A stretch of DNA of 64,000 nt, taken from Curvibacter microcysteis. Its GTDB lineage: Bacteria; Pseudomonadota; Gammaproteobacteria; Burkholderiales; Burkholderiaceae_C. This document shows, piece by piece, positions 6,265 through 27,482 of this stretch. Under the pieces are notes generated by a model. The model ran no database searches. It was not told where the DNA came from and saw nothing but the letters and a program-made list of their open reading frames with translations. A program made the position numbers and the translations under genes. Numbering within the stretch: position 1 is the first letter of the stretch; every line of letters begins with the position of its first letter. The stretch covers positions 682,001-746,000 of the forward strand of contig NZ_JAQSIO010000002.1 in assembly GCF_028649455.1 (NCBI RefSeq), written 5' to 3'.

Positions 6265-6307
6265 GCGGGCCTCGGTGCCAGGTCAAACGGTCTTTCAGGA
6301 GCCCCGC

Positions 6308-7734: not shown

Positions 7735-10700
7735 ATGAACCGCTACCACCCAGACGCTGCCTCTGCCATGCGCTGCCCCATCTGCGCTGAGGGCGTGGCC
7801 GCGACCCACCGATTTTGCTCGGCCTGCGGTGCGCGACTCGGGGCTGTCGAGGCGGATCAGGCGGTGGAGAAACGCTACATCACCGTGCTGTTTTGCGACC
7901 TGGTGGACTCCACCGCGCTGGCCGGTGCCGTGGATGCCGAAGACTTGCGGGAGATCTTTCAGGCCTACCAAGCCAGTTGTCTGGACATCGTGGCGCAGTT
8001 TGACGGCCATGTGGCCCAGGTGCTGGGCGACGGGCTCCTGGTTTATTTCGGCTACCCACGGGCGCAAGAAGCGGCTGCGGCCCGCGCCCTCCACACCGCG
8101 CGCGGCATTGTCGCGATGCTGCCGCGGCTCAGCGCGCGCCTGCGTCACCTCACCACCCTGGCCCTGCAGGTTCGCATTGGCATCCACACCGGCATGGTGG
8201 TGGTGGGGGATGTGGGCAGCGGTGAGCGGCGCGAGCGCCTGGCCATTGGCGAGGTGCCGCACATTGCGGCCCGCTTGCAGGCCTGTGCCCAGGCCAATGA
8301 AGTGGTGGTGTCCGAGGCGACCCGGCGGGCCATTCGAGAAGACCAGAACTGGCAGGCGCTGGGGCCTTTGAATCTGCGCGGCGTGACCCACCCCGTGGTG
8401 GCCCATCGCTTGTCGCCCGAGCCTTGGGCCGCCAGCCGCTCAGTGCCGGGTTGGCACCCGACGCTCACGGGGCGACCTGCTGACCGGGCCTTGTTGGAGC
8501 AGGCCTGGCGCCAGGTACAGGCCGGCCTCTTGGCCCCGCCATGCCCTGACGCTTGCCGCTCGGTGCTCATCACCGGTGAGCCTGGCCTGGGCAAATCCCA
8601 TTTGCTGATGGGGCTGTGCCGGCGGGTGCAGGCCCAGGGCGCGCGCGCCTGGGTGTGGCGCTGTTCACCGCACCACCAGGCCAGCGAATGGCATGCGGTG
8701 CTGGAGGGGTTGGAGGCCGACCTGGGCCTGAGCCAGGCCACGGGTGCCGAGCAGCGCCATGCTGTTTGGTGCGCGCAACGCCCTGCAGGCTGGGCCCCGG
8801 ATGGCGAGGATGCCCGCCTGCTGGCCCGCTTGCTGCGCGCTGAAGACCCGGCCCAGTCCGGGCAATGGACCTGGCCCGCCGCCGTGCTCAAGCAGCGCAG
8901 CGAAGCCGCTTTGCTGCGTGGCCTGCGCGCCTGGTCGGCTCAGCAGCCCTTGCTGCTGGCGTTGGAGGACTTGCACTGGGCGGACCCCTCGACCCTGGCC
9001 CTGGCGCGGGCCCTGCAAGAGGACCCCGGTCCGGCCTGCTTGCTGGTGTTGACCCAGCGCCCGCCCACCGAGCCGCCGCCGGCGCTACCGGCCAGCACCC
9101 AGTCCGTGGTCTTGGACCGCCTGAAGCCCGAAGAGGCCGAGGCTTTGCTGCTGCAGTGCACCGAAGGCAAGCCTTTGCCGCCCGAGGTGCAGCGCCGCAT
9201 CCTGGAGAACACCGACGGCGTTCCCTTGTTCATCGAGGAATTCACCCGCACCGTGCTGGAGTCCGATCTGCTCAAGGAAACCGCCCAGGGTTATGAATTG
9301 CGCGGCCCCTTACCGACGGCCCTGATCCCGGACAACCTGCGGGATTCGCTGTCGACCCGTTTGGACCGGCTGGAGGCTGGGCGGGCCGTGGCGCGCCGGG
9401 CCTCCGTCATCGGGCGGCGTTTCGAACGGGCCTTGCTCCAGGCCTTGTGCGGCAATGACCCGGCGCTGGTCCAGCAAGGCTTGAACGAACTGCTGGCGGC
9501 AGGCCTGGTGCGGCCCCTGGATGAATCGGGCCAGCGCTATGAGTTCAAGCACGCCCTGGTGCAGGCCGCGGCCTACGACACCTTGCTGCGCCGCGACCAT
9601 CACCTGCTGCACGGCTTGCTGGCCAACGAACTGGCCCGCCAGCAGCCGGAGCTGCTGCAGCGCCAACCCGAGCTGCTGGCCCACCACCACACCGAAGCCC
9701 AGCAGTGGGCGCCCGCCGTGCAGCTGTGGTTGCGGGCCGGGCAGCACGCGCTGTCGCGCTCGGCCAACCTGGAGGCGCTGTCGCACCTGCGCGCCGGCCT
9801 GGCCTTGATCCGCCACCTGCCGCCTGACGAGGGCGCTCGGCTGGAACTCAGCCTGCTGGGCTTGATGGCGCCGGCCCTCAAGGTGACGCGCGGCTTCACG
9901 GCGCCCGAGCTGGAAGCGCTGTACGCGCGGGTTGAGGCCTTGTGCCAGGTGCTGCCCGACCGGCCCGAGATGTTCGTGGCCCTCAATGGCCTGTGGGGCT
10001 ACCGCCAGGTCAAGGGCCAGCAGCAGGGCTTGATCGCGCTGGCGCAGCAGAACCTGGCCTTTGTGGAGCGGGCCGGCACGCCCACCATGCTGGCGCAGGC
10101 GGTGTTTTCGGTCGGGGTGTCGCAACTCTGGTCGGGCCAGTTCCGACAAGCCAATGACAGCTTGTGGCGCGCCGTGCAGGTCTATGACCCGGTGCGCGAC
10201 GCCCACACCGCCCAGGTCTACGGCTCCGACCCCCGGGTGGCCGCCGAGTGTTACCGGTCCTATGCCTTGTTTGCCATGGGCCTGGCCGATCAGGCCGAAG
10301 CGGCGATCGAGCGCGCTGCCGACTGGGCCCAGCGCCTGGACCACCCCTTCAGCCGGACCTGGGGCGTGGTGTTTCGCAGTGGCTTCGATGTCATGCGGCA
10401 CGAGCCGCACCGGGTGCTGGCCGAGGTGGACCGCCACATCGCCCACTGCCGCGAGGTCGGCCATGTCTTTTGGTTGGCCACCACCTTGGCCACCCGGGCC
10501 TGGGCCTGGGCCATGACCGGCCGCCGCCAAGAGGGCATCGAGGGACTGCGGGCTGCGCTGGCCTTTCAGGCCTCGATTGGGGCGGGCGTGATCCAGCCCC
10601 AGTGGCGGTGCAAGCTGGCCGAGGCCTTGATGCTGGACGGCCAACTGGAACAGGCCGAGCTTGAAATCGACTCCGCCCTGGCGACCAGCCTGGCCCATGA

Positions 10701-11013
10701 AGACCTGTTTGGCCGCAGCGACATCTTGCGCGTGCGCGGTGAAATCGCCTGGCGGCGCCACCCCGATCAACCCGACCTGGCACACGCGCGCCTGCAAGAG
10801 GCCCTGGCCATGGCCCAGCAACTGGACTACAAACCCTGGGCCTTGCGCATTGCCACCAGCTTGTGGCGCCTGGCGGACGCGCACGGCACGCCCCGCCCGC
10901 CCTTGCCGGAACTGCTGGCCGAGCTGCACGAGGGGCAGGGCAGTTGGGCCCTGCGCGATGCCCGCGCGGCCTTGCGATCAACCCACGCCGCGCTGAGCCA
11001 GCCGCCGGCCTGA
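7735..11013 (+). CDS. Zinc-ribbon, class III nucleotide cyclase, AAA ATPase and TPR fusion protein
   Basis: A 1092-aa multidomain protein. Residues 14-31 form a zinc ribbon (CPIC and CSAC). Residues 45-225 are a class III cyclase domain with metal-binding D55 (FCDLVDST) and D99 (LGDGLLVYFG). An AAA domain follows with Walker A GEPGLGKS at 281-288 and Walker B LLLALEDLHWAD at 405-416. The rest is helical and TPR-like. The catalytic stretch reads GEVPHIAARLQ: R180 is kept, but the usual transition-state Asn is His176. Such proteins usually act as large regulators or cyclases; the signal and product are unknown. It is preceded by a roughly 130-bp AT-rich divergent promoter region. An in-frame ATG at 7768 is an alternative start. 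Confidence 0.85.
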   Translation: MNRYHPDAASAMRCPICAEGVAATHRFCSACGARLGAVEADQAVEKRYITVLFCDLVDSTALAGAVDAEDLREIFQAYQASCLDIVAQFDGHVAQVLGDGLLVYFGYPRAQEAAAARALHTARGIVAMLPRLSARLRHLTTLALQVRIGIHTGMVVVGDVGSGERRERLAIGEVPHIAARLQACAQANEVVVSEATRRAIREDQNWQALGPLNLRGVTHPVVAHRLSPEPWAASRSVPGWHPTLTGRPADRALLEQAWRQVQAGLLAPPCPDACRSVLITGEPGLGKSHLLMGLCRRVQAQGARAWVWRCSPHHQASEWHAVLEGLEADLGLSQATGAEQRHAVWCAQRPAGWAPDGEDARLLARLLRAEDPAQSGQWTWPAAVLKQRSEAALLRGLRAWSAQQPLLLALEDLHWADPSTLALARALQEDPGPACLLVLTQRPPTEPPPALPASTQSVVLDRLKPEEAEALLLQCTEGKPLPPEVQRRILENTDGVPLFIEEFTRTVLESDLLKETAQGYELRGPLPTALIPDNLRDSLSTRLDRLEAGRAVARRASVIGRRFERALLQALCGNDPALVQQGLNELLAAGLVRPLDESGQRYEFKHALVQAAAYDTLLRRDHHLLHGLLANELARQQPELLQRQPELLAHHHTEAQQWAPAVQLWLRAGQHALSRSANLEALSHLRAGLALIRHLPPDEGARLELSLLGLMAPALKVTRGFTAPELEALYARVEALCQVLPDRPEMFVALNGLWGYRQVKGQQQGLIALAQQNLAFVERAGTPTMLAQAVFSVGVSQLWSGQFRQANDSLWRAVQVYDPVRDAHTAQVYGSDPRVAAECYRSYALFAMGLADQAEAAIERAADWAQRLDHPFSRTWGVVFRSGFDVMRHEPHRVLAEVDRHIAHCREVGHVFWLATTLATRAWAWAMTGRRQEGIEGLRAALAFQASIGAGVIQPQWRCKLAEALMLDGQLEQAELEIDSALATSLAHEDLFGRSDILRVRGEIAWRRHPDQPDLAHARLQEALAMAQQLDYKPWALRIATSLWRLADAHGTPRPPLPELLAELHEGQGSWALRDARAALRSTHAALSQPPA

Positions 11014-11044
11014 TGCACGAAGGGGGCGCCGTGCCATGCCCCGT

Positions 11045-11058: not shown

Positions 11059-11176
11059 GCACAGGAAATGCTTCGATGGTCCAGCCCTGCTGGAGCGCCC
11101 GCCACCCCGGGCGGCGGCCCAGCTTTCTTTGTCCATTTGCCGTGTGCCTTGGCGGCGCGCGGCCCAGAAAGTTTGC

Positions 11177-11737
11177 ATGTCGACCTTGGCCCCTGTGACC
11201 CCGCTTTCTGCGCCTGACGCGCTGGCCTCTTCGGACCTGGGGCTGCCCACCGAAGTGCCTCTGGACGAGCGCGATGGCCGCTACCTGCGTGCGGCCATCG
11301 CCTTGGCGGACCGGGGGCGCTCCCGGGGCAACCGGCCTTTTGGCGCTGTGCTGGTGTCGCCCGAGGACGAGGTGCTGGGCGAGGCCTGGTGCAACACCAG
11401 CGAAACCGGCGACTGCACGGGCCACGCCGAAACCGGCCTGGTGCGCGAAGTCAGTCCGCGCTATTCGCGCGAGCAACTGGCCCAGGCCACGCTGTACAGC
11501 TCGGGCGAGCCCTGCGTGATGTGCGCGGGCGCCATCTTCTGGTCCAACGTGCGGCGGGTGGTCTATGGCATCGACGCCCAACGCCTGCGCGCCTTCCGCG
11601 GCGAGCGCCTGGACCAGCGCGATGCCGAGCTCTCTTGCCGCGATGTGTTCGCCGCCTCGCCTTACCCGATTGAGTGCATCGGCCCGGCCCTGGTCGAAGA
11701 GGCCAGCCAGTCCCACCGGGGCGCCTGGAAGCTGTGA
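11177..11737 (+). CDS. Nucleoside/nucleobase deaminase (CDA-fold)
   Basis: A 186-aa zinc-dependent deaminase of the cytidine/guanine/tRNA-adenosine deaminase superfamily. Zinc ligands are H83 (with catalytic E85 in HAE) and C113/C116 in the PCVMC motif. NRPFGAVLV near residue 52 is the substrate-binding strand seen in guanine deaminase and TadA relatives. The C-terminus (FAASPYPIECIGP) favours a free-base deaminase over TadA. The ATG at 11177 was chosen because the family domain begins shortly after it. The stop overlaps the next ATG (TGATG), coupling it to the RutR-like regulator and placing it in the heterocycle cluster. Confidence 0.82.
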   Translation: MSTLAPVTPLSAPDALASSDLGLPTEVPLDERDGRYLRAAIALADRGRSRGNRPFGAVLVSPEDEVLGEAWCNTSETGDCTGHAETGLVREVSPRYSREQLAQATLYSSGEPCVMCAGAIFWSNVRRVVYGIDAQRLRAFRGERLDQRDAELSCRDVFAASPYPIECIGPALVEEASQSHRGAWKL

Positions 11738-12471
11738 TGGGCGCGGTGGACCCGTCTCTGCCGGCGGCTGTTCAAGCTGAGGGGGCTGCCGAGGGCGGGG
11801 CGCCCGTCAACCGCCTGCGCGCGGGCCGGGAGCGCACCCTGGCAGCCATCCGAGCCGCTGCCATTGTGGAATTCAGTCAGCACGGCTTCAAGGGCGCCTC
11901 CACCCAGGCGATTGCCGAGCGCGCAGGCCTGACCAAGCCCCAATTGCATTACTACATCCGCGGCAAGGACGAGCTCTACGAAGAGCTGCTGGGCGCCGTG
12001 CTGCAAGGCTGGAGCAGCGCCTTTGTGTTTGACGCGCCGCGTGAAGGTTTGCCCGCCGAGCCGCGCCAGGTGCTGGCCGAGTACGTGCGGCGCAAGCTGG
12101 ATTACGCGCTGGACCACCCGGGCCTGTCGCGCATCTTCACGGGCGAGGTGCTCAGCGGCGGCCCCAAGCTCGGCCGCTATTGGCCCGAGGCGCGGCGCTC
12201 CACCCAGCGCAAGGTGGAGGTCATTGAAGGCTGGATCGCCCAGGGCCTGGTGCGTCCCCTGGACGCGCGCGTGCTGCTGATGCAGATCTGGGGCATGACC
12301 CAGCACTATGCCGACTATGGCGTGCAAGTGCGCGTGATGCTGGGTCTGCCCCCGGATGCGCCACTGGACCGTGCACCGATTGCGCTGCAAATCACCAACT
12401 TCGTGCTGCTGGGCTGTGGCCTGGCACCACTTCAGGACATGCCGCCAGCGCCGGGCCCGGTTGGAAGGTGA
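11737..12471 (+). CDS. TetR-family regulator of the RutR type
   Basis: A 244-aa repressor. The N-terminal helix-turn-helix reads STQAIAERAGLTKPQLHYY near residues 50-70. The C-terminal ligand domain has the RutR hallmarks EYVRRKLDYALDHP, EVLSGGPKL and IWGMTQHYADY, which I recall as close to E. coli RutR, the uracil/thymine-responsive regulator. The start ATG overlaps the deaminase stop by one base. An operator like the RutR box lies 40 bases after its stop at 12511-12526, before the next operon. Its own upstream deaminase may be in the same regulon. The ligand is probably a pyrimidine-like ring (inference). Confidence 0.85.
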   Translation: MGAVDPSLPAAVQAEGAAEGGAPVNRLRAGRERTLAAIRAAAIVEFSQHGFKGASTQAIAERAGLTKPQLHYYIRGKDELYEELLGAVLQGWSSAFVFDAPREGLPAEPRQVLAEYVRRKLDYALDHPGLSRIFTGEVLSGGPKLGRYWPEARRSTQRKVEVIEGWIAQGLVRPLDARVLLMQIWGMTQHYADYGVQVRVMLGLPPDAPLDRAPIALQITNFVLLGCGLAPLQDMPPAPGPVGR

Positions 12472-12488: not shown

Positions 12489-12504
12489 TGGCACAGCGTT
12501 TGCA
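12489..12504 (+). promoter_or_regulatory. Sigma-54 (-24/-12) promoter of the catabolic operon
   Basis: TGGCACAGCGTTTGCA matches the RpoN consensus TGGCAC-N5-TTGCA at every defined base, with ten bases between the GG and GC. The predicted start is near 12515, about 80 bases before the reductase ATG at 12595. Sigma-54 dependence implies an NtrC-like activator and nitrogen control. Confidence 0.8.
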
Positions 12505-12510
12505 AGCAGT

Positions 12511-12526
12511 TTGACCGATCGATCAA
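12511..12526. promoter_or_regulatory. RutR-type operator
   Basis: TTGACCGATCGATCAA is a 16-bp near-palindrome resembling the E. coli RutR box (TTGACC, four bases, GGTCAA). A further half-site TGGTCAA lies at 12533-12539. It sits on the predicted +1 of the sigma-54 promoter, where a bound repressor would block transcription. Confidence 0.7.
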
Positions 12527-12594
12527 ATCAATTGGTCAAGAAAGCGGCGCAGTGCTGCGCTTGACCCTTCCGACCCAGCGAAAGGGCCCGAGTG

Positions 12595-13182
12595 ATGCGG
12601 ATCTTGGTGATTTACTGCCACCCTGTGGAAACCAGCTACAACGCGGCTTTGCACCAGCAGGTGCTGCAAAGCCTGCGTCAGGCTGGCCACGAGGTGGACG
12701 ACTGCGACCTGTACGCTGAAGGCTTCAACCCGGTCTTGTCCCGTGAAGAGCGCCTGGGCTACCACGAGGTGCCCGGCAACCGCCTGCCCGTGCAAGGCTA
12801 TGTGGACCGCCTGTTGTGGGCCGAGGGCCTGGTGTTCTGCTTCCCCACCTGGTGTTTTGGCCTGCCCGCCATGTTGAAGGGCTTTTTTGACCGGGTGCTG
12901 ATGCCCGGCGTGGCCTTTGACATCAGCGATCCGCAAAACGTCAAACCCTCGCTGACCCACATCAAGCGCATCTCGGCCGTGGTCACCTATGGCCGCCCGC
13001 GCTGGACCGCCTGGTTCATGGGCGACCCGCCGCGCAAGGTCATCACACGCTACCTGCGCCTGTTGACCGGCGGCAGTGCCCGCGTCAGCTACCACGCGCA
13101 CTACCACATGAACGTGGCCACCCCGCAAAGCCTGGACGCCTTCAAGTCCCGGGTTGGCTTGGCCATGGGGCGGCTGGCATGA
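12595..13182 (+). CDS. NAD(P)H-dependent flavodoxin-fold oxidoreductase (NQO1/MdaB-like)
   Basis: A 195-aa protein of the NAD(P)H:quinone oxidoreductase family. It begins with the flavin-phosphate loop ILVIYCHPVETSYNAAL. The FCFPTWCFGLPAMLKGFFDRVL block is the isoalloxazine and quinone pocket. It is the first gene of the operon. An AAGGG ribosome site lies about 8 bases before the ATG at 12595; a GTG at 12592 is less likely. It ends in an ATGA overlap with the amidohydrolase. In this context it could supply reduced flavin or reduce a ring or quinoid intermediate (inference). Confidence 0.8.
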   Translation: MRILVIYCHPVETSYNAALHQQVLQSLRQAGHEVDDCDLYAEGFNPVLSREERLGYHEVPGNRLPVQGYVDRLLWAEGLVFCFPTWCFGLPAMLKGFFDRVLMPGVAFDISDPQNVKPSLTHIKRISAVVTYGRPRWTAWFMGDPPRKVITRYLRLLTGGSARVSYHAHYHMNVATPQSLDAFKSRVGLAMGRLA

Positions 13183-14486
13183 GCGCGCTCGCCCCCCCTT
13201 GGAGTCCTATCCCCGAGGGCCTGGCCCGCGCCCGTTTGCCCGCCTGGGCCCTGCCGGCCGACTGGCCGCGTGAGGGCCTGGTGCCCGCGCTGGCCGATGT
13301 GCAGCTGGCCCAGGGCCGCGTCCACCGCGTCAGCCCCGCGGGCTTGGCCCCGCTGGCGGGCCCGGTGTGGGACCTGGCGGGCGCCCCGGTGCTGCCCGGC
13401 CTGGTCGACGCCCACACCCACCTGGACAAGGCCTTCACCCTGCCGCGCATGGGCGAGGTGCAGCCCGGCTTGCTGGGCGCCATCGACGCCATGATGCAGG
13501 ACCGCCGCCATTGGACCTCGGAGGACGTGCGCGAACGCGCCAGCCAAGGCCTGCGCTGGGCCCACGAGGCCGGCGTGGTGCAGCTGCGCAGCCATTGCGA
13601 CTGGTGGGAACCCCAGACCACGCCCGTGGCCTGGCCGGTGTTGCGCGAACTGGCCCAGGAGTGGCAGGGCCGCCTGCAGCTGGAGCGCGTCAGCCTGATC
13701 CCTTTGCACCTTTACGCCCAGCGTGACACTGCGATGGCGCTGGCGGCCCAAGTGGCGGCCAGTGGCCCGGGTGCTTGCCTGGGCGGCTTCGTGCACAGCA
13801 GCAACTGGGACCCGCAGGCCTTGCGCCACCTGCTGGAGGCCGCGCGCCACCACGACCTGGACGTGGACCTGCATGTGGACGAAGAGCTCAACCCGCGCGC
13901 CCAGGGCCTGTGGCATGTGGCGCGCCTGGTCAAGGCGCTGGGCCTGCGCACCCGTGTGGTTTGCGGCCACACCTGTGCGTTGGCGGCCCAGCCTGAGGCC
14001 GAGGCCCTGGCCACCCTGGACGCGGTGGCCGAGGCCGGCCTGACCTTGGTCAGCCTGCCCATCACCAATTTGCTGCTGCAGGACGCGGTCACCGGGCGCA
14101 CCCCGCGCTCGCGCGGGCTCACCCTGGTCAAGGAGGCGCGGGACCGTGGCATCCCGGTGCTGCTGGCCAGCGACAACGTGCAAGACCCGTTTTGCCCCAG
14201 TGGCAGCTTTGACCCGCTGGAGGCCTTTGGCGTGGGCGTGGCCATGGGCCAGTTGGGCCAGGCTTTTGATCAGTGGAGCGACAGCCTGTGCCGGCGCGAC
14301 GCGCTGGCCCGACCCGGCAGCGCGCCGCCCGCCCCATTCAGCGCGGGCAGCCCGGCGGATGTGCTGATCTTCCCGCAGGCCAATGCCTGGGGCTTCCCGT
14401 CGCGCACCCAGCCTCGCGTGGTGCTGCGCCAGGGGCAGCCGCTGGCCCCAATCCCCCAGCCTTCATTTGCATCGGAGTCCGCATGA
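13179..14486 (+). CDS. Cytosine/creatinine deaminase-like amidohydrolase (CodA family)
   Basis: A 435-aa metal-dependent amidohydrolase. Metal and catalytic residues are H79/H81 (DAHTHLDK), H232 with E235 (HVDE), H264 (CGHTCAL) and D332 (SDNVQDPF). The spacing H232-E235-H264-D332 nearly reproduces E. coli CodA (H214-E217-H246-D313). CodA-type enzymes deaminate cytosine, isocytosine, creatinine or related ring amidines. It overlaps the reductase before it and the RidA-fold gene after it by 4 bases each, so all are tightly coupled. The exact substrate is unknown. Confidence 0.82.
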   Translation: MSALAPPWSPIPEGLARARLPAWALPADWPREGLVPALADVQLAQGRVHRVSPAGLAPLAGPVWDLAGAPVLPGLVDAHTHLDKAFTLPRMGEVQPGLLGAIDAMMQDRRHWTSEDVRERASQGLRWAHEAGVVQLRSHCDWWEPQTTPVAWPVLRELAQEWQGRLQLERVSLIPLHLYAQRDTAMALAAQVAASGPGACLGGFVHSSNWDPQALRHLLEAARHHDLDVDLHVDEELNPRAQGLWHVARLVKALGLRTRVVCGHTCALAAQPEAEALATLDAVAEAGLTLVSLPITNLLLQDAVTGRTPRSRGLTLVKEARDRGIPVLLASDNVQDPFCPSGSFDPLEAFGVGVAMGQLGQAFDQWSDSLCRRDALARPGSAPPAPFSAGSPADVLIFPQANAWGFPSRTQPRVVLRQGQPLAPIPQPSFASESA

Positions 14487-14953
14487 ATTCCCCGGCCGCT
14501 TCGCTCCCCACCATCGCCCAGCCCCTGGCGCGCTACGCGGCCTGGCGCCGCGCCGGGGATTTGGTGTTCCTGTCAGGCGTGATCGCGGTTGACCCCGCCG
14601 CCCAGCGCATCGTGCAAGGCTATGGCGACATCCCCGACGCTGCGGCGGACCTGATTGGGCGCACGGGTGAGTTCTCCAGTGATTTCAAGGACGGTCCCAT
14701 CTTGGCCCAGAGCTGGTATGTGCTGGACCGTGTGCGACTGACCATTGAGGCCGCCGGCGGCCAGATGAGCGACGTCTTCAAGCTGGTGCAGTACTTCAAG
14801 AACCTGGACCACTTCCCGCACTACAGCCGGGTGCGCAAGCTGTTCTTCCCGGGCGAGCCGCCGGCGTCCACGGTGGTCGAGGTCAGCGCCATGCTGCCCA
14901 GCGCCGACATCCTGATCGAGGTCGAAGCCACGGCCTACCTGCCGCTGCGCTGA
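14483..14953 (+). CDS. RidA-fold (YjgF/YER057c/UK114) protein lacking the catalytic arginine
   Basis: A 156-aa protein with the RidA core: GDLVFLSGVIAVD, an ESWYVLDRVR-like helix (AQSWYVLDRVRLTIEAAG) and the end strand STVVEVSAMLPSADILIEV. Canonical RidA is about 130 aa; here an extra stretch of about 35 residues follows the first strand (residues 38-72). Where imine deaminases have Arg (E. coli R105 in PARS), this protein has S129 in PPAST. It therefore probably does not act as a standard enamine/imine deaminase. RutC of the Rut pathway is also RidA-like, so a role in the same catabolic route is likely. The ATG overlaps the amidohydrolase stop. Confidence 0.8.
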   Translation: MNSPAASLPTIAQPLARYAAWRRAGDLVFLSGVIAVDPAAQRIVQGYGDIPDAAADLIGRTGEFSSDFKDGPILAQSWYVLDRVRLTIEAAGGQMSDVFKLVQYFKNLDHFPHYSRVRKLFFPGEPPASTVVEVSAMLPSADILIEVEATAYLPLR

Positions 14954-14997
14954 ACAGCGACCTTGGCCCTCCGATCCACCCCGCGAAAGCCCAACCT

Positions 14998-15858
14998 ATG
15001 CTGCACGGCTACAACCCGCCCCAACGCTTTTTGCCTTACCTGAGCTGGCGCGAGATCGTCGAACTGCCCGACCGCGCCAACACCGTCATCGTGCTGCCGA
15101 CGGGGGCGACCGAGCAACACGGCCCGCACCTGCCGTGTGCGGTGGACACGGTGATCGCCGCCGGTGTGGTTGGCCACGCCCTGGCGGCCTTGCCCGCCTC
15201 GGTGCCGGCGTATGCGATGGCGCCCATCACCTACGGCAAGAGCGAGGAACACCTGAACTTTCCAGGCACCATGACGCTCAGCGGCGAGACCCTGCTCGCC
15301 ACCATGAACGAGATCGGCGAGTCGGTCTACCGCGCGGGCTTTCGCAAGCTGCTGATCGTCAACGGCCATGGCGGCCAGCCCCAGGTCATGGAGATGGCGG
15401 CGCGCGAGCTTCGCTTGCGTCACGGCGACTTCATCGTCGTGCCCAGCTTCACCTGGCGCGTGCCCCATGTGGCGGGGCAGTACCTGTCCGAGCGCGAGAA
15501 AAAGCTCGCCATGCACGCCGGCCACGCCGAGACGGCGCTGATGCTGGCCTTGGCGCCCGACACGGTGCACATGGCGCACGCCGTGACCAACTACCCGCCC
15601 GAGTTCCCCTCCCGCCTGTTGTCGCCCGATGGGCGCCCCGCCTGCGCCTGGAGTGCGCGCGACTTCGGACCCAGCGGCATCATCGGCGACCCCTTGCCGG
15701 CCACGGCCGAGCAGGGCCAGGCCATCCTCGAATCGCTGGCCCAGAGCTGGGCCCAGGCCATCACCGAGCTGCACGAGCTGCACTGGGCTCCGCGTGCCGA
15801 AGCCACCTGGGGCCGGGGCCAATTCAGCGGCCATGTCGAAGGCAGGGCCCCGGGCTGA
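14998..15858 (+). CDS. Creatininase-family amidohydrolase
   Basis: A 286-aa metal-dependent amide-ring hydrolase. Metal ligands are visible as E39 and H41 (TGATEQHGPHLP), D50 (VDT), H124 (NGHGGQ) and E178 in HAGHAETALML. The family opens cyclic or linear amides: creatinine to creatine, deformylation of pyrimidines, and related reactions. It lies 44 bases after the RidA-fold gene in the same operon. Together with a CodA-type deaminase it suggests stepwise hydrolysis of a nitrogen ring; creatinine itself is one candidate. Confidence 0.85.
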   Translation: MLHGYNPPQRFLPYLSWREIVELPDRANTVIVLPTGATEQHGPHLPCAVDTVIAAGVVGHALAALPASVPAYAMAPITYGKSEEHLNFPGTMTLSGETLLATMNEIGESVYRAGFRKLLIVNGHGGQPQVMEMAARELRLRHGDFIVVPSFTWRVPHVAGQYLSEREKKLAMHAGHAETALMLALAPDTVHMAHAVTNYPPEFPSRLLSPDGRPACAWSARDFGPSGIIGDPLPATAEQGQAILESLAQSWAQAITELHELHWAPRAEATWGRGQFSGHVEGRAPG

Positions 15859-15905
15859 GCCTGGCCTGAGTCCTGCGGACCGACTGCCGAAAACGAAGCT
15901 GACTT

Positions 15906-15921
15906 TGGCACGCCCTTTGCC
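15906..15921 (+). promoter_or_regulatory. Sigma-54 (-24/-12) promoter of the transporter operon
   Basis: TGGCACGCCCTTTGCC matches TGGCAC-N5-TTGCA except for the last base, with correct GG-N10-GC spacing. The start would fall near 15932, 28 bases before the binding-protein ATG. It is the second RpoN promoter in the cluster. Confidence 0.75.
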
Positions 15922-15959
15922 TTGAGACGAATCCATCCACCCACCCCCGGAGTTCTGCC

Positions 15960-16988
15960 ATGACCCACTCTGCTGTTTCCCCCCGCGCCCTGACTCGCCT
16001 GACGGCCGCCTGGCGGCCCGTGGCCCTGGCCGCTTGCGCCCTGGCGGCCCTGGCGGGCAGCACGACGGCCCGCGCCGACGAGCCTTTTGTCTACATGACC
16101 AACTGGTACGCCCAGGCCGAGCACGGTGGCTTCTACCAAGCCCTGGCCACGGGCTTGTACAAGAAGGCGGGTCTGGACGTCAGCCTCAAGATGGGCGGCC
16201 CGCAGGTCAATGTGGTGCAGATCATGGCCGCCGGCCAGGCCGACTGCGTGATGGGCTCCAGCGATTTGCAAATGGTGCAGATTCGCGAAGGCGGCGTGCC
16301 CGTGACCACGGTGGCGGCCATGTTCCAGAAAGACCCCCAGGTGCTGATCGGCCACGAGGACGTGAAGAAGTTTGAAGACCTCAAGGGCAAGACCATCCTG
16401 ATTGCGGGTTCGGCGCAAAAGGGCTTTTGGCCCTGGCTCAAGGCCAAGTACGGCTTCACCGACGCCCAGACCCGGCCCTACACCTTCAACATCCAGCCCT
16501 TTGTGGCCGACAAGAACTCGGCCCAGCAGGGCTACCTGACCTCGGAACCCTTTGCCATCCAGAAGGCGGGCGTCAAAGCGACGACCTTGATGTTCAGCGA
16601 CCACGGCTTCCCGGCCTACGCCACCACCGTGTCCTGCATGGACAAGACGGTCAAGGACCGCAAGAAGGCCGTGGCCGCCTTCGTCAAAGCCTCGGCCGAG
16701 GGCTGGAAGAGCTACCTGGCCGACCCCGCCCCGGGCAATGCCTTGATCAAGAAGGACAACCCGCAGATGAGCGACGAGCAACTGGCCTACAGCGTGGCCA
16801 AGCTCAAGGAGACCGGCATGATCGGCGGCGGCGACGCGGCCAGCCAGGGCATCGGTGTCATGACCGACGCGCGCATCAAGGCCAGTTACGACTTCCTGGT
16901 CAGCACCAAGCTGATCGACCCGGCCAAGGTCAAGCCCACCGAGGCCTACAGCACTGAGTTCGTGAAAGACCTCAAGGTCCTGCCCTGA
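15960..16988 (+). CDS. ABC transporter substrate-binding protein, NMT1/THI5-like
   Basis: A 342-aa periplasmic binding protein. A signal peptide covers about residues 1-37, with an AxA-type site (TTARADEP). The mature start FVYMTNWYAQAEHGGFYQAL and the GQADCVMGSSDLQMVQ block are typical of the NMT1/ThiY/SsuA group, which binds pyrimidines, formylaminopyrimidine, sulfonates or aromatic acids. A GGAG ribosome site lies just upstream. It begins the transporter operon behind the second sigma-54 promoter, so it probably captures the substrate of the adjacent catabolic enzymes. Confidence 0.85.
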   Translation: MTHSAVSPRALTRLTAAWRPVALAACALAALAGSTTARADEPFVYMTNWYAQAEHGGFYQALATGLYKKAGLDVSLKMGGPQVNVVQIMAAGQADCVMGSSDLQMVQIREGGVPVTTVAAMFQKDPQVLIGHEDVKKFEDLKGKTILIAGSAQKGFWPWLKAKYGFTDAQTRPYTFNIQPFVADKNSAQQGYLTSEPFAIQKAGVKATTLMFSDHGFPAYATTVSCMDKTVKDRKKAVAAFVKASAEGWKSYLADPAPGNALIKKDNPQMSDEQLAYSVAKLKETGMIGGGDAASQGIGVMTDARIKASYDFLVSTKLIDPAKVKPTEAYSTEFVKDLKVLP

Positions 16989-17072
16989 CGCCTGGCCTGC
17001 GCCGCGCCCTGCGCCCCGGTGGGCGAGGGCAGGGCGCTGCTCCATGACCTCCTTGTCCCTGAAAGCCCTGGC

Positions 17073-17912
17073 ATGAGTCCTGACACCTTGCAGCCCGCTG
17101 CCGCCGCCACCCGCTCGCCTTCGGCGGGTGATGAGGTGCCTGCGGTCGACATCCTGTCGGCCGAGAAGACCTATCCCAATGGCACGCGGGCCCTGCTGCC
17201 CGTGGACCTGAGCCTGCGCGAGGGCGAGTTCGTCACCTTGCTCGGTCCCTCGGGCTGCGGCAAGAGCACATTGCTGAAGATGATTGCCGGCCTGCTCGAG
17301 CCCAGCGACGGCCGCCTGTTGCTGTGGCGCAAGCCCGTGGCTGAACTGGCCCAGACCGGGCGCAAGATGGCCTTCGTGTTCCAGTCGCCCACGCTCATGC
17401 CCTGGGCCACGGTGCGCAGCAATGTGCGCCTGCCCCTGGACCTGGCGGGTGTGCCGCGCGCCGAGGCCGAGGCCCGGGTCAGCGAGGTGTTGGCCCTGGT
17501 GGGCTTGGCCAAGTTTGACCAGGCCCTGCCGCGCGCGCTGTCGGGCGGCATGCAGATGCGGGTGTCGATCGCCCGCGGCCTGGTCACCGAGCCCGACCTG
17601 CTGCTGATGGACGAGCCCTTTGGCGCCCTCGACGAAATCACGCGCCACAAGCTGGACGCTGAGCTGCTGGAGTTGTGGCGCAAGAAAAAGCTCACGGTGA
17701 TCTTCGTCACCCACTCCATCCACGAGGCGGTGTTCCTGTCCAGCCGGGTGGTGATGATGGCGGCCCGCCCGGGCCGGGTGGTGGAGCAGTTCCAGATCGA
17801 CGAACCCCACCCCCGCACCGCCGACTTTTTGGTGAGCCCGCAGTTCGCCGTCCACGCGCGCCAGTTGCAAGACAGCCTGCTGCGCGCCAGTCACGAGGAG
17901 GACCACCCATGA
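17073..17912 (+). CDS. ABC transporter ATP-binding protein (SsuB/TauB/ThiZ type)
   Basis: A 279-aa ATPase with Walker A GPSGCGKS, Q-loop FVFQSPTLMPWATV, signature LSGGMQMRVSIARGL, Walker B LLLMDEPFGALDE and switch His in FVTHSIHEAVFL. It energises the NMT1-type importer. The ATG at 17073 is preferred; a GTG at 17019 is also in frame. Its stop overlaps the permease start as ATGA. Confidence 0.9.
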   Translation: MSPDTLQPAAAATRSPSAGDEVPAVDILSAEKTYPNGTRALLPVDLSLREGEFVTLLGPSGCGKSTLLKMIAGLLEPSDGRLLLWRKPVAELAQTGRKMAFVFQSPTLMPWATVRSNVRLPLDLAGVPRAEAEARVSEVLALVGLAKFDQALPRALSGGMQMRVSIARGLVTEPDLLLMDEPFGALDEITRHKLDAELLELWRKKKLTVIFVTHSIHEAVFLSSRVVMMAARPGRVVEQFQIDEPHPRTADFLVSPQFAVHARQLQDSLLRASHEEDHP

Positions 17913-18727
17913 GCCGCCCAGCCGCTCCCGCGTGGTTGCACCGGCCCCAGGTGCAGCGCGTGGTTTACCCCGTCTTGGTGGGGGTGTTTTTGCTCGCTCT
18001 CTGGCAGGGCTTGGTGACGGGGCTGGAGTTGCCCCCTTACCTGGTGCCCAGCCCGGTGCTGATGTTCAAGACCCTGGTCAACGACGCTCCCACCCTGGGC
18101 CTGGCCCTGTGGGTCACGGTCAAGGTCACCTTGCTGGCCTTTGTGCTGGCCACGGTGGTGGGGGTGTTGATCTCCTTTGTGTTTGTGCAGAGCCAGCGCA
18201 TCGAGACGGCGCTGTTCCCTTACGCGGTGCTGTTGCAGGTCACGCCGATTGTGGCGGTGGCGCCCTTGATCATCATCTGGGTGCGCGACGCCACGCTGTC
18301 CATGGTGATCTGCGCGGCCCTGGTGGCCTTGTTTCCGATCATCAGCAACACCACCCTGGGCCTGCGCAGCGTGGAGCCCGACCTGCAAGCCTACTTCCAG
18401 CTGAACCGCGCGACGCGCTGGCAGTCGCTGGTGCGCCTGCGCATCCCCAGCGCCTTGCCTTACTTTTTCGGTGGCCTGCGCATCTCCAGCGGCCTGGCCT
18501 TGATTGGCGCGGTGGTGGCCGAGTTCGTGGCGGGCACGGGCGGCGCAGGGGCGGGTCTGGCCTACCAAATTCTGCAGGCCGGCTTTCAGCTCAACATCCC
18601 GCGCATGTTTGCGGCGCTGCTGCTGATTTCGTTCACAGGTGTGGCCTTGTTCGCCCTGATGTCCTGGCTCAGCCGCTGGGCCCTGGGCGGTTGGCACGCC
18701 AGCGAGACCTCGCGTGAGGGCGGCTGA
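17909..18727 (+). CDS. ABC transporter permease (SsuC/ThiX type)
   Basis: A 272-aa integral membrane protein with about six hydrophobic helices and the cytoplasmic coupling region around AYFQLNRATRWQSLVRLRIPSALPYFFGGLR. It pairs with the ATPase before it (ATGA overlap). No ribosome site beyond the GAGGAGG in the end of the ATPase gene is needed. Confidence 0.9.
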   Translation: MSRPAAPAWLHRPQVQRVVYPVLVGVFLLALWQGLVTGLELPPYLVPSPVLMFKTLVNDAPTLGLALWVTVKVTLLAFVLATVVGVLISFVFVQSQRIETALFPYAVLLQVTPIVAVAPLIIIWVRDATLSMVICAALVALFPIISNTTLGLRSVEPDLQAYFQLNRATRWQSLVRLRIPSALPYFFGGLRISSGLALIGAVVAEFVAGTGGAGAGLAYQILQAGFQLNIPRMFAALLLISFTGVALFALMSWLSRWALGGWHASETSREGG

Positions 18728-18779
18728 GCCCCCTTCGGATCCTTATGAGTTGCCCCTTTTTGATGGCTGGAGAGAGACC

Positions 18780-20135
18780 ATGACCGCTTGCACCGTGGCC
18801 GCCACCGAGCTGCCCCAACACCTGCCGATGATCGACTGGATCACCGACCCCTCCCGCGTGGCCCGCCTGTCGCAGGACTTTGCCTGGTTCAGCCCGGTGC
18901 TCAAGCGCGATTTGCAGGGCAAGGTGGGCGAGGTGGTGGCGCGCCCGCGCACCGAGGAGGAGATTCGCCAGGTGGTGGGCCTGTGCGCCCGGGAGGGCGT
19001 GCCCATCACCGTGCGCGGCAGTGGGACCGGCAACTACGGCCAGTGCACGCCACTGGAAGGCGGCGTGGTCCTTGATTTGAGTGCGTACAACAGCTTTCTC
19101 TGGTGCCGGGGCCAGGTCGGCCGGGCCCAGGCCGGGATCCGCTTGGCTGACTTTGACGAGCGTTGTCGCCCCCAGGGGCAGGAGTTGCGCTGGCTGCCGT
19201 CCACCTTCCGCAGCGCCACCCTGGGGGGGCTGTTTGGCGGCGGCTTTGGCGGCGCGGGCTCCATCACCTACGGCCCACTGGCGGCGCCTGGCAATGTGCT
19301 GGGCGTGAAGGTGATGTCCGTCGAGCCGGAGCCCCAGGTGCTGGAGCTGCGCGGCGCCGAGGCCATGTTGCTGCACCACACCTATGGCGCCAATGGCATC
19401 GTGCTGGAGTTGGAAGTGGCCTTGGCCCCTGCCACACCCTGGCTGGAGTGCCTGGTCGAGTTGGATGACTTCGAGGCCGCTCTGCAGCTGGCCAGTGAGT
19501 TCGGTGCCGCCCCCGGTCTGCTGAAAAAGGAGGTGTGCTTTTTGGGCGCGCCGATCGCGGACTACTTCACCGCCTTGGCCGAGCACCTGACGCCAGGCGC
19601 CCATGTGTTGCTGTTGGTGCTGGCCCCCGAAGCCGAGTCCACCTTGCAGGAGATGGTGGCACGCCATGGCGGCCGCCTGTGCTACCGAAAAAGTGCCGAC
19701 GAAGTGGCCGCCAGTCACCGCACCCTGCTGGAATACACCTGGAACCACACCACGCTGCATGCGCTCAAGGTGGACAAGGGCCTGACCTACATCCAAAGCG
19801 GTTTTGACCCTCAGCGCTACCAGGCTCAGGTGCTGGCGCTCGAACAGGCGCTGGCCGGCGAGGTGTTGATGCACCTGGAGTTCCTGCGCACCAAAGAGGG
19901 GGCTTTCACCTGCAGCGGTTTGCAGATCATCCGCTACAGCAGCGAGGCGCGGCTCAACGAGATCATGCAGACCTACCGCGACCAAGGCGTCTTCATCAAC
20001 AACCCCCACGTCTACGTGGTGGAGGACGGCAAACAAGCTGGGCAACTGGCGCCGGGCGTATTGGCCATGAAGCGGCGTTTTGACCCCCAGGGCTTGCTCA
20101 ACCCAGGCAAGCTGCGCAGCTGGATGAGCGCCTGA
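18780..20135 (+). CDS. FAD-linked (PCMH/VAO-type) oxidase
   Basis: A 451-aa FAD-binding oxidoreductase. The FAD pyrophosphate loop is seen in ITVRGSGTGNYGQCTP, with a second block TLGGLFGGGFGGAGSITYGPL. The C-terminal cap ends in RFDPQGLLNPGKL, as in glycolate oxidase GlcD and D-lactate dehydrogenase relatives. A GGAGAG site lies 6 bases before the ATG at 18780. It begins 52 bases after the permease and is probably in the same operon, providing an oxidative step for the heterocycle route. Substrate unknown. Confidence 0.8.
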   Translation: MTACTVAATELPQHLPMIDWITDPSRVARLSQDFAWFSPVLKRDLQGKVGEVVARPRTEEEIRQVVGLCAREGVPITVRGSGTGNYGQCTPLEGGVVLDLSAYNSFLWCRGQVGRAQAGIRLADFDERCRPQGQELRWLPSTFRSATLGGLFGGGFGGAGSITYGPLAAPGNVLGVKVMSVEPEPQVLELRGAEAMLLHHTYGANGIVLELEVALAPATPWLECLVELDDFEAALQLASEFGAAPGLLKKEVCFLGAPIADYFTALAEHLTPGAHVLLLVLAPEAESTLQEMVARHGGRLCYRKSADEVAASHRTLLEYTWNHTTLHALKVDKGLTYIQSGFDPQRYQAQVLALEQALAGEVLMHLEFLRTKEGAFTCSGLQIIRYSSEARLNEIMQTYRDQGVFINNPHVYVVEDGKQAGQLAPGVLAMKRRFDPQGLLNPGKLRSWMSA

Positions 20136-21973: not shown

Positions 21974-22693
21974 TCACACGCCGAGGTAGGTCTTCCACAG
22001 GCTGCGGTCACCATCCAGTGCGGCCGAGCTGCCCTGCCAAACGACCCGACCGCGTTCGAGGATGAAGTGCCTGTCCGCCAGCCGCAGCAGACGGTCGACG
22101 TACTTGTCGACCACCAGAATGGTTTGGCCAGCTGCGCGCAACTGGGCCAGGCATTGCCAGATTTCCTCACGGATCACGGGCGCCAGGCCCTCTGTCGCTT
22201 CGTCCAGGATCAGCAGCCGAGGGTTGGTGGACAGGGCGCGGCCAATGGCCAACATCTGTTGCTCGCCGCCTGAGAGCTGGTTGCCCAGGTTCTGCGCACG
22301 TTCTTTGAGGCGCGGAAACAGCTGGTAGATGCGGCTTGCCGTCCAACTGTCGCGTTGGCCGTTGCGCTGGTCGGCAAATGCCACCAGGTGCTCATGGACT
22401 GTCAGATTGGGGAAGCACTGGCGTCCCTCGGGGACCACGGCCATGCCCAGGCGGGCGATGGCATCGGGGCGCAGCCCGTGGATGGGGGTGCCGCCGAAGT
22501 GGATGCTCCCCTGGCGGGGCGTCAGGTCGCCGATGAGGGTCTTGAGGGTGGTGCTCTTGCCCATGCCATTGCGGCCCAGCAGCGTGACCACCTGCCCAGC
22601 CTCGATGCTCAGGTCGATGCCCAGCAGCACCTCGCTGGCACCGTAGCCAGCCTCCAGGCCACGCGCTTGGAGAAGGGGGATGGGGGCAGTCAT
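21974..22693 (-). CDS. livF: Branched-chain/aromatic ABC transporter ATP-binding protein LivF
   Basis: A 239-aa HAAT-type ATPase with Walker A GRNGMGKS, signature LSGGEQQMLAIGRAL and Walker B LLILDEATEGL. The usual LVEQN switch is VVDKY here, a variant also known in some LivF proteins. Its start overlaps the livG stop as ATGA. As last gene of the dioxygenase-livKHMGF string, it probably serves import of the aromatic substrate rather than leucine (inference). Confidence 0.9.
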   Translation of the reverse strand: MTAPIPLLQARGLEAGYGASEVLLGIDLSIEAGQVVTLLGRNGMGKSTTLKTLIGDLTPRQGSIHFGGTPIHGLRPDAIARLGMAVVPEGRQCFPNLTVHEHLVAFADQRNGQRDSWTASRIYQLFPRLKERAQNLGNQLSGGEQQMLAIGRALSTNPRLLILDEATEGLAPVIREEIWQCLAQLRAAGQTILVVDKYVDRLLRLADRHFILERGRVVWQGSSAALDGDRSLWKTYLGV

Positions 22694-23448
22694 GCGGCGG
22701 TCTCCGTGGTTTCCGTGCCCAGGTAGACGGCTTGCACCTGGGCGTGGTTGCGGATGGTCTCGACATCGCCAGAGAGCAGGACCTTGCCGTACACCAGCAC
22801 GGTGATGCGATCCGCCAAGGCGAACACCGCTTTCATGTCGTGTTCGATCAGCAAGATGGCCATGTCCTGGCGCAGTGAATGGATCAGCTCGGTCATGCGC
22901 TCGCTGTCCTCGGGGCCCATGCCGGCCATGGGTTCATCGAGCAACAGCAGCTTGGGCTGCGCCGCCAGCGCCAGGGCCACGTCCAGTTGCCTTTGTGCGC
23001 CGTGGGGCAGGGTGCCAGCGCAGCGTTGCAAGGCGTACGTCAAGCCCACGCGCGCGGCCAGCGCCTGGGCTGCCTCGACCAGGCCAGGGTCGCGACCTCG
23101 ATCGGCCCAGAAGCGAAAACTGCTCCCGGATTGCGCTTGCACGGCCAGCAGCAGGTTGTCGAGCACCGTGGCCTTGGGGAAGATGCTGGTGATCTGGAAG
23201 CAGCGGGACAGGCCAGCCCGGATGCGTGCCTCCATGGGCAGGGTCGTGAGCTTGGCGCCGTCGAGTTCGATCTGGCCTTCGTCGGGCAGCAGCAGGCCTG
23301 AGATCAGGTTCACCAGGGTGGATTTGCCGGCCCCGTTGGGCCCGATCAGGGCGTGAATTTCGTTCGGGTGCACTTCCAGCGCTACGTGGTCGGTGGCGAC
23401 CAGCGCGCCGAAGCGTTTCACCAATCCGTTGACAACAAACAGGCTCAT
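22690..23448 (-). CDS. livG: ABC transporter ATP-binding protein LivG
   Basis: A 252-aa ATPase with Walker A GPNGAGKS, the LivG-type signature LPHGAQRQLDVALAL, Walker B LLLLDEPMAGMG and the switch sequence LIEHDMKAVF. The ATG at 23448 overlaps the livM stop (ATGA). The longer frame upstream is shadow sequence within livM. Confidence 0.92.
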   Translation of the reverse strand: MSLFVVNGLVKRFGALVATDHVALEVHPNEIHALIGPNGAGKSTLVNLISGLLLPDEGQIELDGAKLTTLPMEARIRAGLSRCFQITSIFPKATVLDNLLLAVQAQSGSSFRFWADRGRDPGLVEAAQALAARVGLTYALQRCAGTLPHGAQRQLDVALALAAQPKLLLLDEPMAGMGPEDSERMTELIHSLRQDMAILLIEHDMKAVFALADRITVLVYGKVLLSGDVETIRNHAQVQAVYLGTETTETAA

Positions 23449-24422
23449 GCGATTTCTCCGGGGCTGGCTTGGGCCGCTTTCGAGGGGGTAGGGGCACGCC
23501 AATGCGCGACCACACTGGCCAGGCCTCGAGGCGCCACGAAAACGATCAGGATCAGCAGCAGGCCCAGGGGCAGGTGCCAGAACTCGGTCAGCTGCTTGGC
23601 GCCTTCCTCCAGCCCGATCCACACCATGGCCCCGACCGGCCCCCCCCAGCGCAGGCCGACACCACCAATCACCACCATGACGATGAGCGTGGCGGACTGG
23701 GTCCAATGCATCACCGAGGGGCTGACAAACGCGTTGTGCGACACCAGCAGCGCCCCGGACAGGCCGGCGATCGCGCCCGACAACGCAAACGCTGCCAGCA
23801 TCAGCTTGAACACCGGGTAGCCCATGGCCCGCATGCGGGTTTCGTTGTCACGCAAGCCCATCAAGGCGTGGCCAAAGCGTGAGTGGGTGGCGCGGTTCAG
23901 CCCGAGCATCACCAGAGCCAGCAAGGCGAGCACGACCCAATAGAACGTGGCTTCATCGGTGCTGTCCAGGCCCAGGCCCAATTGGGGGCGGGCGGCCAGG
24001 TTGTAGCCATCGTCTCCGCCATAGGCCCGCAGTGACACGGCCACGTAGTAAAGCATCTGCGCGAAGGCCAGCGTGCTCATGATCAGGTACACCCCCCGCG
24101 TGCGCAGGGCAATCAGGCCGATCAAGGCGGCCACCGCCCCGGCCACCAGCATGGCGGCGGGCCAGAGCAGCCAGGCCGATTCAAAGCCCGCGTCGTACAA
24201 GGCGACCAGCGCGTAGGCCCCCACGCCCACAAAGCCTGCGTGGCCCAGCGCCGCCATGCCGCCAAAGCCGAGGATGAAGTTCAGGCTGGCGGCCGCCAGC
24301 GCCACGATCATGGCGCGGCGCACGAAGCTGACATAGAAGTCCAAGCCCAGTGCCGGGGCCAAGAGGGGAAACAGTGCCAGCAAGGCACAGAGCAGGCAGG
24401 CGAGCCAACGTTCTGATTTCAT
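23445..24422 (-). CDS. livM: ABC transporter permease LivM
   Basis: An inner-membrane permease of 325 aa with about nine hydrophobic helices and the LivM block ASLNFILGFGGMAALGHAGF. I prefer the ATG at 24422, because AAGGA lies 7 bases before it and would abut the ATG at 24428 directly. Confidence 0.9.
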   Translation of the reverse strand: MKSERWLACLLCALLALFPLLAPALGLDFYVSFVRRAMIVALAAASLNFILGFGGMAALGHAGFVGVGAYALVALYDAGFESAWLLWPAAMLVAGAVAALIGLIALRTRGVYLIMSTLAFAQMLYYVAVSLRAYGGDDGYNLAARPQLGLGLDSTDEATFYWVVLALLALVMLGLNRATHSRFGHALMGLRDNETRMRAMGYPVFKLMLAAFALSGAIAGLSGALLVSHNAFVSPSVMHWTQSATLIVMVVIGGVGLRWGGPVGAMVWIGLEEGAKQLTEFWHLPLGLLLILIVFVAPRGLASVVAHWRAPTPSKAAQASPGEIA

Positions 24423-24435
24423 GGACATTTCCTTT

Positions 24436-25356: not shown

Positions 25357-25381
25357 GTTGTGCGCCTTGGTCTCAGGACAC

Positions 25382-26581: not shown

Positions 26582-26637
26582 GCGAACGCTCCTTGGGTGG
26601 AAATGAAGGCAGAAAGAACAAAGATCGGCGGACGGGT

Positions 26638-26991: not shown

Positions 26992-27001
26992 GTGGGGCTC
27001 C

Positions 27002-27478: not shown

Positions 27479-27482
27479 GTGT

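Follow-up and report, generated by a model that had tools for sequence, protein, structure and literature searches.

Opening of the pterin ring in bacteria is hardly known at the gene level in the literature that we found. In Variovorax sp. F1, a pterin deaminase of 399 amino acids, 37% identical to Arad3529, deaminates folic and pteroic acid, and its cloning was guided by endoribonuclease genes lying downstream in V. paradoxus; the accessible part of that report identifies a carboxypeptidase and a deaminase step, while further product breakdown is inferred there and its steps are left open (PMC9513972). A second point of reference is PDB entry 6v42, titled 'Crystal structure of the flavin oxygenase with cofactor bound involved in folate catabolism'. 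Here, we analyzed a 64,000-nucleotide stretch of Curvibacter microcysteis DNA (contig NZ_JAQSIO010000002.1, C2:682001-746000 in a 4.82-Mb genome; hereafter, the window), which carries ten genes between positions 11162 and 20135 that encode putative catabolic enzymes, an importer and a RutR-like repressor of the TetR family. The region is probably an operon for the import and degradation of a pteridine, meaning a pterin or the lumazine that results from its deamination. The gene order and the family assignments were read directly from the sequence, and the reaction assigned to each enzyme is a prediction.

The families of all ten genes were confirmed using Pfam and NCBIfam. A sequence-only reading of this DNA had listed a flavodoxin-fold reductase, a CodA-like protein, a RidA-fold protein, a creatininase, an NMT1-type importer and an FAD_binding_4 enzyme, and each of these was recovered by family models; the PF00383 deaminase gene, whose stop at 11737 overlaps the start of tetR, had been overlooked. 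The features are as follows (flavin adenine dinucleotide, FAD; ATP-binding cassette, ABC):

11162-11737, + strand: PF00383 nucleoside-deaminase-like gene (dCMP_cyt_deam_1, 68.9 bits, cut-off 25; alternative ATG at 11036)
11737-12471, + strand: tetR, RutR-like TetR repressor gene (TetR_C_3; RutR proteins are the best relatives)
12489-12504, + strand: predicted sigma-54 type -24/-12 promoter, full consensus (motif and conservation in relatives)
12511-12539, + strand: predicted RutR-like operator TTGACC-N17-GGTCAA, adjoining the -12 element on its downstream side (conserved arms)
12592-13182, + strand: flav, flavodoxin-fold NAD(P)H oxidoreductase (Flavodoxin_2, 104.2 bits; 3lcm; start at GTG 12592 or ATG 12595)
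13179-14486, + strand: codA, CodA-fold amidohydrolase, proposed pterin deaminase (23-24% identity to E. coli CodA; metal and acid residues kept)
14483-14953, + strand: RidA-fold protein gene (3lyb, E 2.6e-65)
14998-15858, + strand: creatininase-fold amidohydrolase gene (PF02633, 247.6 bits)
15906-15921, + strand: second sigma-54-like site (perfect core; not conserved)
15960-16988, + strand: NMT1/THI5-type periplasmic binding protein gene (PF09084, 107.8 bits; 4nmy, ThiY-type 3ix1, THI5)
17073-17912, + strand: ABC transporter ATPase gene (Pfam/NCBIfam; alternative GTG at 17019)
17909-18727, + strand: ABC transporter permease gene (Pfam/NCBIfam)
18780-20135, + strand: FAD_binding_4 flavoenzyme gene (6v42 relative; alternative GTG at 18714)

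Similarity of the cluster to pterin-linked enzymes

The FAD enzyme was compared with solved structures using phmmer, which returned 6v42 with an E-value of 6.8e-97, the next match being at 1.6e-10. Its AlphaFold model (mean predicted local distance difference test score, pLDDT, of 87.0) also matched 6v42 in a Foldseek comparison, with a template modelling (TM) score of 0.92 and 37% identity, and the runners-up were D-lactate dehydrogenases (TM about 0.7, 16-20% identity). Moreover, a creatininase, an NMT1-type ABC importer, a 'cytosine deaminase', an FAD enzyme, an NAD(P)H oxidoreductase and RidA are grouped on pRL12 of Rhizobium johnstonii (locus L135), next to molybdenum aldehyde oxidase genes, and the FAD enzyme of this cluster scored 719 bits against 6v42. 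Partial gene sets were found in Ruegeria and Agrobacterium.

The deaminase provides a further connection. Six of eight Variovorax-named genomes and one other (8X) carry a second CodA-like gene (38-40% identity); none was found in the remaining two Variovorax and two Acidovorax among the 11 genomes searched in all. In the Variovorax second set, the CodA-like protein has 398 residues (L132) or 400 residues (L133, L134), and a RidA gene follows directly. The opposite strand of all three loci encodes a RutR-like TetR protein, a reductase, the flavodoxin-fold protein and the binding protein; L133 and L134 also have the FAD enzyme, permease, ATPase and creatininase there, making the set whole, and the sequence covered for L132 extends no further than the binding-protein gene. 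Judged by genus, length and RidA neighbor rather than by sequence, the second-set gene is probably the counterpart of the Variovorax deaminase, as far as the accessible description of that enzyme goes. The second-set deaminase is 36% identical to that of Rhizobium, next to the 37% between the Variovorax sp. F1 enzyme and Arad3529, and about 40% identical to the window type. The enzymes of the window are therefore not all new, given that 6v42 and the Variovorax pterin deaminase, as described in the accessible text, are, or very probably are, their relatives.

A scan that started from the CodA-like protein yielded 76 loci related to the window cluster, and all counts below are conditional on that gene. 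Trees were built from every fourth locus, and the window type formed its own clade in both of them, with long-branch warnings. One form of the pteridine reading, which appears doubtful to us, equates the window cluster with the folate/pteroate pathway and gives it the substrate of the Variovorax deaminase. It would agree with the shared kinds of genes, with the relationship to 6v42 and with the finding that no copy of the second-set type turned up in this genome; against it stand the separate clade and the retention of both versions, about 40% identical, by six of eight Variovorax genomes, which suggests different substrates.

Genes of tetronate metabolism adjoin some of these clusters. In the second Variovorax set, a 2-oxo-tetronate isomerase gene ends just before the deaminase gene, with 3-oxo-tetronate kinase and L-threonate dehydrogenase genes upstream. 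Nine Acidovorax loci likewise have some of the tetronate genes, at a distance of a few kilobases upstream of their window-type cluster, and an intervening opposite-strand gene makes the link weaker there; three tetronate-type proteins of Acidovorax (L025) pass curated cut-offs. In the Curvibacter genome, a 3-oxo-tetronate kinase is encoded elsewhere, and two urease alpha matches were found.

The window proteins reached none of the NCBIfam pathway models considered at the curated cut-off. The TetR protein scored 124.6 bits against the RutR model TIGR03613 (cut-off 368), the RidA-fold protein 41.5 bits against the RutC model (cut-off 169), and the creatininase-fold protein 104.4 bits against creatininase TIGR04448 (cut-off 235), also missing the MftE cut-off. 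For PRK07583, labelled 'cytosine deaminase' (cut-off 403), the scores were 318.8 for the window protein, 699.5 for the Rhizobium member and 351.7 for the Variovorax second set. Residues H79, H81, H232, E235, H264 and D332 of the CodA-like protein, its metal and acid residues, are kept in 20 window-type rows and also in the other lineages aligned.

These results bear on the substrate proposed in the sequence-only reading, a pyrimidine-, creatinine- or hydantoin-like ring that would be deaminated and opened. The CodA and creatininase folds, the RutR-like repressor and the RidA fold are consistent with such a route, but the scores fall below the cytosine-deaminase, creatininase and RutC cut-offs, and the flavoenzyme, the deaminase and the related clusters point to pterins. 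To our knowledge, neither pyrimidine nor creatinine breakdown as described involves an FAD_binding_4-type flavoenzyme, which also counts against such a route. We therefore consider this substrate class very unlikely and the earlier proposal probably wrong. The same reading had set the cluster apart from the Rut pathway, and here the gene content supports it: no RutA, RutB, RutD, RutE or RutF model was among the NCBIfam hits of the ten proteins. The labels 'cytosine deaminase' and 'creatininase' on such genes may mislead.

Conservation of the gene set and its neighborhood

The 76 loci are mostly from Comamonadaceae, with Verticiella and Enterobacterales in addition, and the cluster is widespread among related bacteria of soil and fresh water. 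In a sample of the order, 5 of 200 genomes, including this one, had a relative. The closest named locus is L012 of Curvibacter sp. HBC61, with 88% identity in the CodA-like protein. Genes near codA were counted on the + strand using tblastn, at an identity of at least 40% (at least 50% for the PF00383 deaminase); L008, apparently the same contig as L037, was left out. Because nine of the 76 loci are shorter than 10.3 kb and 23 are shorter than 21 kb, some gene absences may reflect truncation.

Creatininase and binding-protein genes were each found in 72 loci, followed by the ATPase (71), permease (69), FAD enzyme (67), flav (64), RidA (57), TetR (46) and PF00383 deaminase (42) genes. In 67 of the 76 loci, codA was accompanied by the creatininase gene, the FAD enzyme gene and all three genes of the importer; the synteny that the sequence-only reading had suggested looking for in other Burkholderiales is conserved. 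In L062, L067 and L074, among others, flav is immediately preceded by the PF00383 deaminase gene. Other neighbors were more variable: a ferredoxin-like or VanB-type reductase gene was nearby in 38 of 76 loci, a 2-oxoglutarate oxygenase in 30 (at least 60% identity to one of three queries), a VanA-type Rieske oxygenase in 12 and an 8-oxoguanine-deaminase-like protein in seven, and UreD was encoded in 20, starting 83-308 nucleotides past the FAD match.

Several of these neighbors are compatible with a purine-related route, in which the substrate would be a purine in oxidised or methylated form, or a product of purine ring opening. The PF00383 deaminase, the 8-oxoguanine-deaminase-like PRK12393 proteins and the 2-oxoglutarate oxygenases near relatives fit this route, as does an oxygenase relative (67%) at C4:526 kb, which by eye lies amid PuuD/PuuE-, NMT1 importer- and urea transporter-like genes. 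Nevertheless, a separate purine-type locus seems present in the same genome, and the conserved core is the set that accompanies the 6v42-type flavoenzyme, which makes a purine substrate unlikely. The purine-type locus (C4:503-537 kb, L096-L098, assigned by eye) contains two 2-oxoglutarate oxygenase relatives, NMT1-type binding proteins, a UreD relative and urea ABC transporter-like genes.

Two database records deserve mention. L034, which comes from a record filed as Pantoea sp. 18069, has a cluster that falls with those of Acidovorax in the CodA tree, and the name or assembly of this record is doubtful. The cluster also occurs in Klebsiella pneumoniae (L099, CP125156.1), in a chromosome-sized 5.37-Mb record labelled plasmid; its codA, creatininase and reductase genes were found using tblastn and are missing from the gene table.

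Other genes near the cluster in the window were assigned by eye. A MocA/MobA-like nucleotidyltransferase gene lies at 6275-6922 (+), and upstream of the deaminase-tetR pair, 7735-11013 (+) encodes a 1092-residue protein with a class III cyclase-like domain, an ATPase and repeats. On the other side, 21974-28487 (-) holds aromatic ring-hydroxylating dioxygenase-like genes (large and small subunit, ferredoxin) and then a branched-chain amino-acid type ABC importer. The Rieske-type gene at 26.6-27.0 kb was rejected as a partner of the cluster, as it groups with the other aromatic-dioxygenase genes.

Predicted promoter and operator of the operon

The sequence TGGCACAGCGTTTGCA at 12489-12504 is an exact match to TGGCAC-N5-TTGCW. 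This 16-base pattern occurs 17 times in the genome, compared with once for the reversed control, and its 15-base core occurs three times in the window, compared with 0.62 expected. Sites with up to two mismatches were at chance level (59 found vs. 59.08 expected), so only near-perfect sites weigh as evidence. The element TTGACC-N17-GGTCAA at 12511-12539 was the sole such element found within the window.

The combination of the two was sought in 77 regions, the 76 loci and the window, using a composite rule (core with up to one mismatch, GACC within 22 nucleotides after it, and no more than 1300 nucleotides upstream of codA). The rule was passed by 54 regions, with a perfect core in 53; the GGTC arm begins exactly 21 nucleotides past the GACC start in 51 of the 54, and the spacing from TTGC to GACC is 7-10 nucleotides in 53. 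Among the 23 regions that failed, L037 has a composite pushed out of range by an insertion, five (L042, L045, L049, L062 and L064) combine a perfect core with a degenerate or missing operator, L077 offered just 69 searchable nucleotides, and the remaining 16 have no perfect core. In a 15-region alignment spanning several genera, the core was present in 15 of 15 and the GACC/GGTC arms in all except L049 (CACC), with a variable middle. Where an extra ferredoxin-like gene precedes flav (Acidovorax, Comamonas and others), promoter and operator precede that gene. In Acidovorax, the reading frame between tetR and flav was rejected as a full reductase, as it has about 100 amino acids and matches the ferredoxin end only. 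Since most loci come from related Comamonadaceae, the 54 composites are not independent events.

It is also conceivable that the first site is a chance match and that the operon is read from a sigma-70 promoter under the repressor alone. No activator site was found at a fixed upstream position, and the site is absent from enterobacterial relatives, both of which would fit. This explanation is nonetheless extremely improbable, because 53 perfect cores stand at the same place among the 77 regions, and because both strands of the 76 loci (2.79 Mb) contain 72 perfect cores, 50 of them in composites, against two matches to the reversed control. Judged by its rarity, position and conservation, the promoter at 12489-12504 is real. 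The full-consensus -24/-12 promoter and the joint sigma-54 and RutR-like control that the sequence-only reading had assigned to the enzyme operon are thus supported at the sequence level by the conserved core, the operator and the RutR-like gene, and rpoN is present in the genome. Such an arrangement, in which a sigma-54 promoter is immediately followed by an operator of the TetR family, appears to us to be an unusual control unit. Another perfect core, at 27778-27793 (-), was treated as a probable chance occurrence, as it lies within a Rieske ring-hydroxylating dioxygenase gene (27483-28487, -).

The second promoter of the sequence-only reading, ahead of the importer genes, fared differently. 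TGGCACGCCCTTTGCC at 15906-15921 has, as had been noted, a perfect 15-base core and one base off the consensus, the last base being C in place of A/T, but its role as a promoter is unproven. None of 69 relatives has a site with up to one mismatch between the creatininase and binding-protein genes, and 11, among them five named as Variovorax, have a two-mismatch site there, at a shuffle p of 0.007-0.05. In L012-L015, which are closest to the window, three to four bases deviate. Furthermore, the element scan of the window found no RutR-like operator beside this site.

Among solved structures, the TetR protein is nearest to RutR (PDB 6z1b, 3loc). Its residues W92, W185 and Q189 align with W77, W167 and Q171 of RutR, which we take to be the uracil contacts, and are invariant in 48 rows (the window plus 47 loci; the other six of the 53 loci that gave a match were dropped, as the matched stretch translated with a stop). 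A TetR relative (at least 55% identity) was found in 53 of the 76 loci, 48 of which have the composite site by the rule. Five loci have a composite and no TetR gene in the stretch covered, and five have TetR without a composite, L037 among them with its site further off. The position of the operator, immediately beyond the -12 element, suggests that it covers the start of transcription.

Nitrogen control of the operon, and with it the use as a nitrogen source that the sequence-only reading had deduced from sigma-54, is possible. The genome has ntrC, and NtrC-like dyads were searched as GCACCN5GGTGC with up to two mismatches. Such a dyad was found within 350 nucleotides upstream in 41 of 54 regions, compared with 17.1 in shuffles, but a recurrent match was tetR coding sequence. 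When only the non-coding sequence separating tetR from the promoter was considered, dyads were found in 22 of 42 cases, compared with 4.8 in shuffles. This excess falls short of proof of nitrogen control, because the dyads differ in sequence among loci, related loci were counted separately, and the gap in the window, at 17 nucleotides, is too short for a dyad. In some window-type Variovorax clusters, the dyad CACCACTTCGGTGCA stands directly upstream of the -24 element (about 9330-9350 in L052), nearer the promoter than is usual for enhancer sites.

Predicted pathway and comparison with known systems

For the pteridine reading, we propose the following mechanism. The repressor would cover the transcription start and be released on binding a lumazine-like ligand, which bears the same dione edge as uracil; induction would need both this release and an activator acting on the sigma-54 RNA polymerase. 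The pteridine would be taken up by the NMT1/THI5-type ABC importer, and the CodA-fold enzyme would strip its 2-amino group, converting pterin to lumazine. The FAD enzyme would then oxygenate the ring, with electrons probably supplied by the flavodoxin-fold reductase, the RidA-fold protein would hydrolyse an enamine or imine formed in this way, and the cyclic amide that remains would be the substrate opened by the creatininase-fold enzyme. Urea released in this way would pass to urease. In relatives, the adjoining Rieske or 2-oxoglutarate oxygenases may trim the side chain first. A four-carbon acid could derive from C6 and the three-carbon side chain of neopterin-type pterins.

Several observations weigh against a pteridine substrate. 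The function of 6v42 is taken from its PDB title, and a literature search found no paper on it. The deaminase is linked to the Variovorax enzyme by genus, length and neighbor and not by sequence, and a RidA match after codA was also seen in two of the 11 Variovorax-named window-type loci (L038 and L043, whose codA frames are longer, at 444 and 493 amino acids) and was not found in the other nine. In the accessible text of the Variovorax report, a cell-free extract left deaminopteroate undegraded (PMC9513972). Moreover, the window enzymes are just 36-42% identical to their pterin-linked relatives, enough divergence for a change of substrate, and six of the eight Variovorax genomes searched kept both deaminase versions. 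The purine-type genes near relatives (8-oxoguanine-deaminase-like in 7/76, PF00383 in 42/76) fit a purine too. In addition, the composite rule found no promoter composite in Enterobacterales and in some loci from metagenome-assembled genomes, which indicates that the promoter is not essential to the gene set.

A more far-reaching interpretation, which we offer as tentative and on balance improbable, is that the window type represents a second widespread pteridine-mineralising system with a substrate distinct from folate and pteroate. It would bring about the full breakdown of pterins of the neopterin or monapterin type, with the uracil-like ring half going to urea and C6 with the three-carbon side chain going, as a four-carbon acid, to the tetronate pathway, under a lumazine-sensing repressor and sigma-54. 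More generally, the conserved operon offers a candidate enzyme for each later step, together with an importer and a regulated promoter, so that the opening of the pterin ring becomes directly testable.

Compared with described systems, the cluster of Klebsiella, Raoultella and Pantoea has the codA-ridA-creatininase-ABC-FAD order of the window, and the closest solved relative of the window RidA-fold protein, 3lyb, is presumably a Klebsiella protein. In contrast to the window, LysR genes adjoin the cluster in these genera and no sigma-54 site lies ahead of the operon, and of the four Enterobacterales loci L080-L083, three have a VanB-type reductase where the window has the flavodoxin-fold protein. 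The Rut pathway resembles the window in its regulator and in the RidA/RutC fold; the RutR operator motif is of the TTGACC...GGTCAA type, as in the window, where the arms are presumably further apart than in the RutR site. It differs in that the window proteins fall below the RutR and RutC cut-offs and that a promoter of the sigma-54 type stands beside the operator.

Like the window protein, the Variovorax sp. F1 pterin deaminase and Arad3529 are amidohydrolases of the CodA type, as far as the accessible description shows. The probable Variovorax counterpart in the second set, about 40% identical to the window CodA-like protein, belongs to a related cluster of similar gene content that also encodes a RutR-like regulator. 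Finally, the flavin oxygenase 6v42/6v43 is the best match of the window FAD enzyme in both sequence and fold, although the two share 37% identity and the window type falls in a separate clade; a much closer relative of 6v42 is encoded in the Rhizobium cluster, together with the same kinds of genes as in the window.

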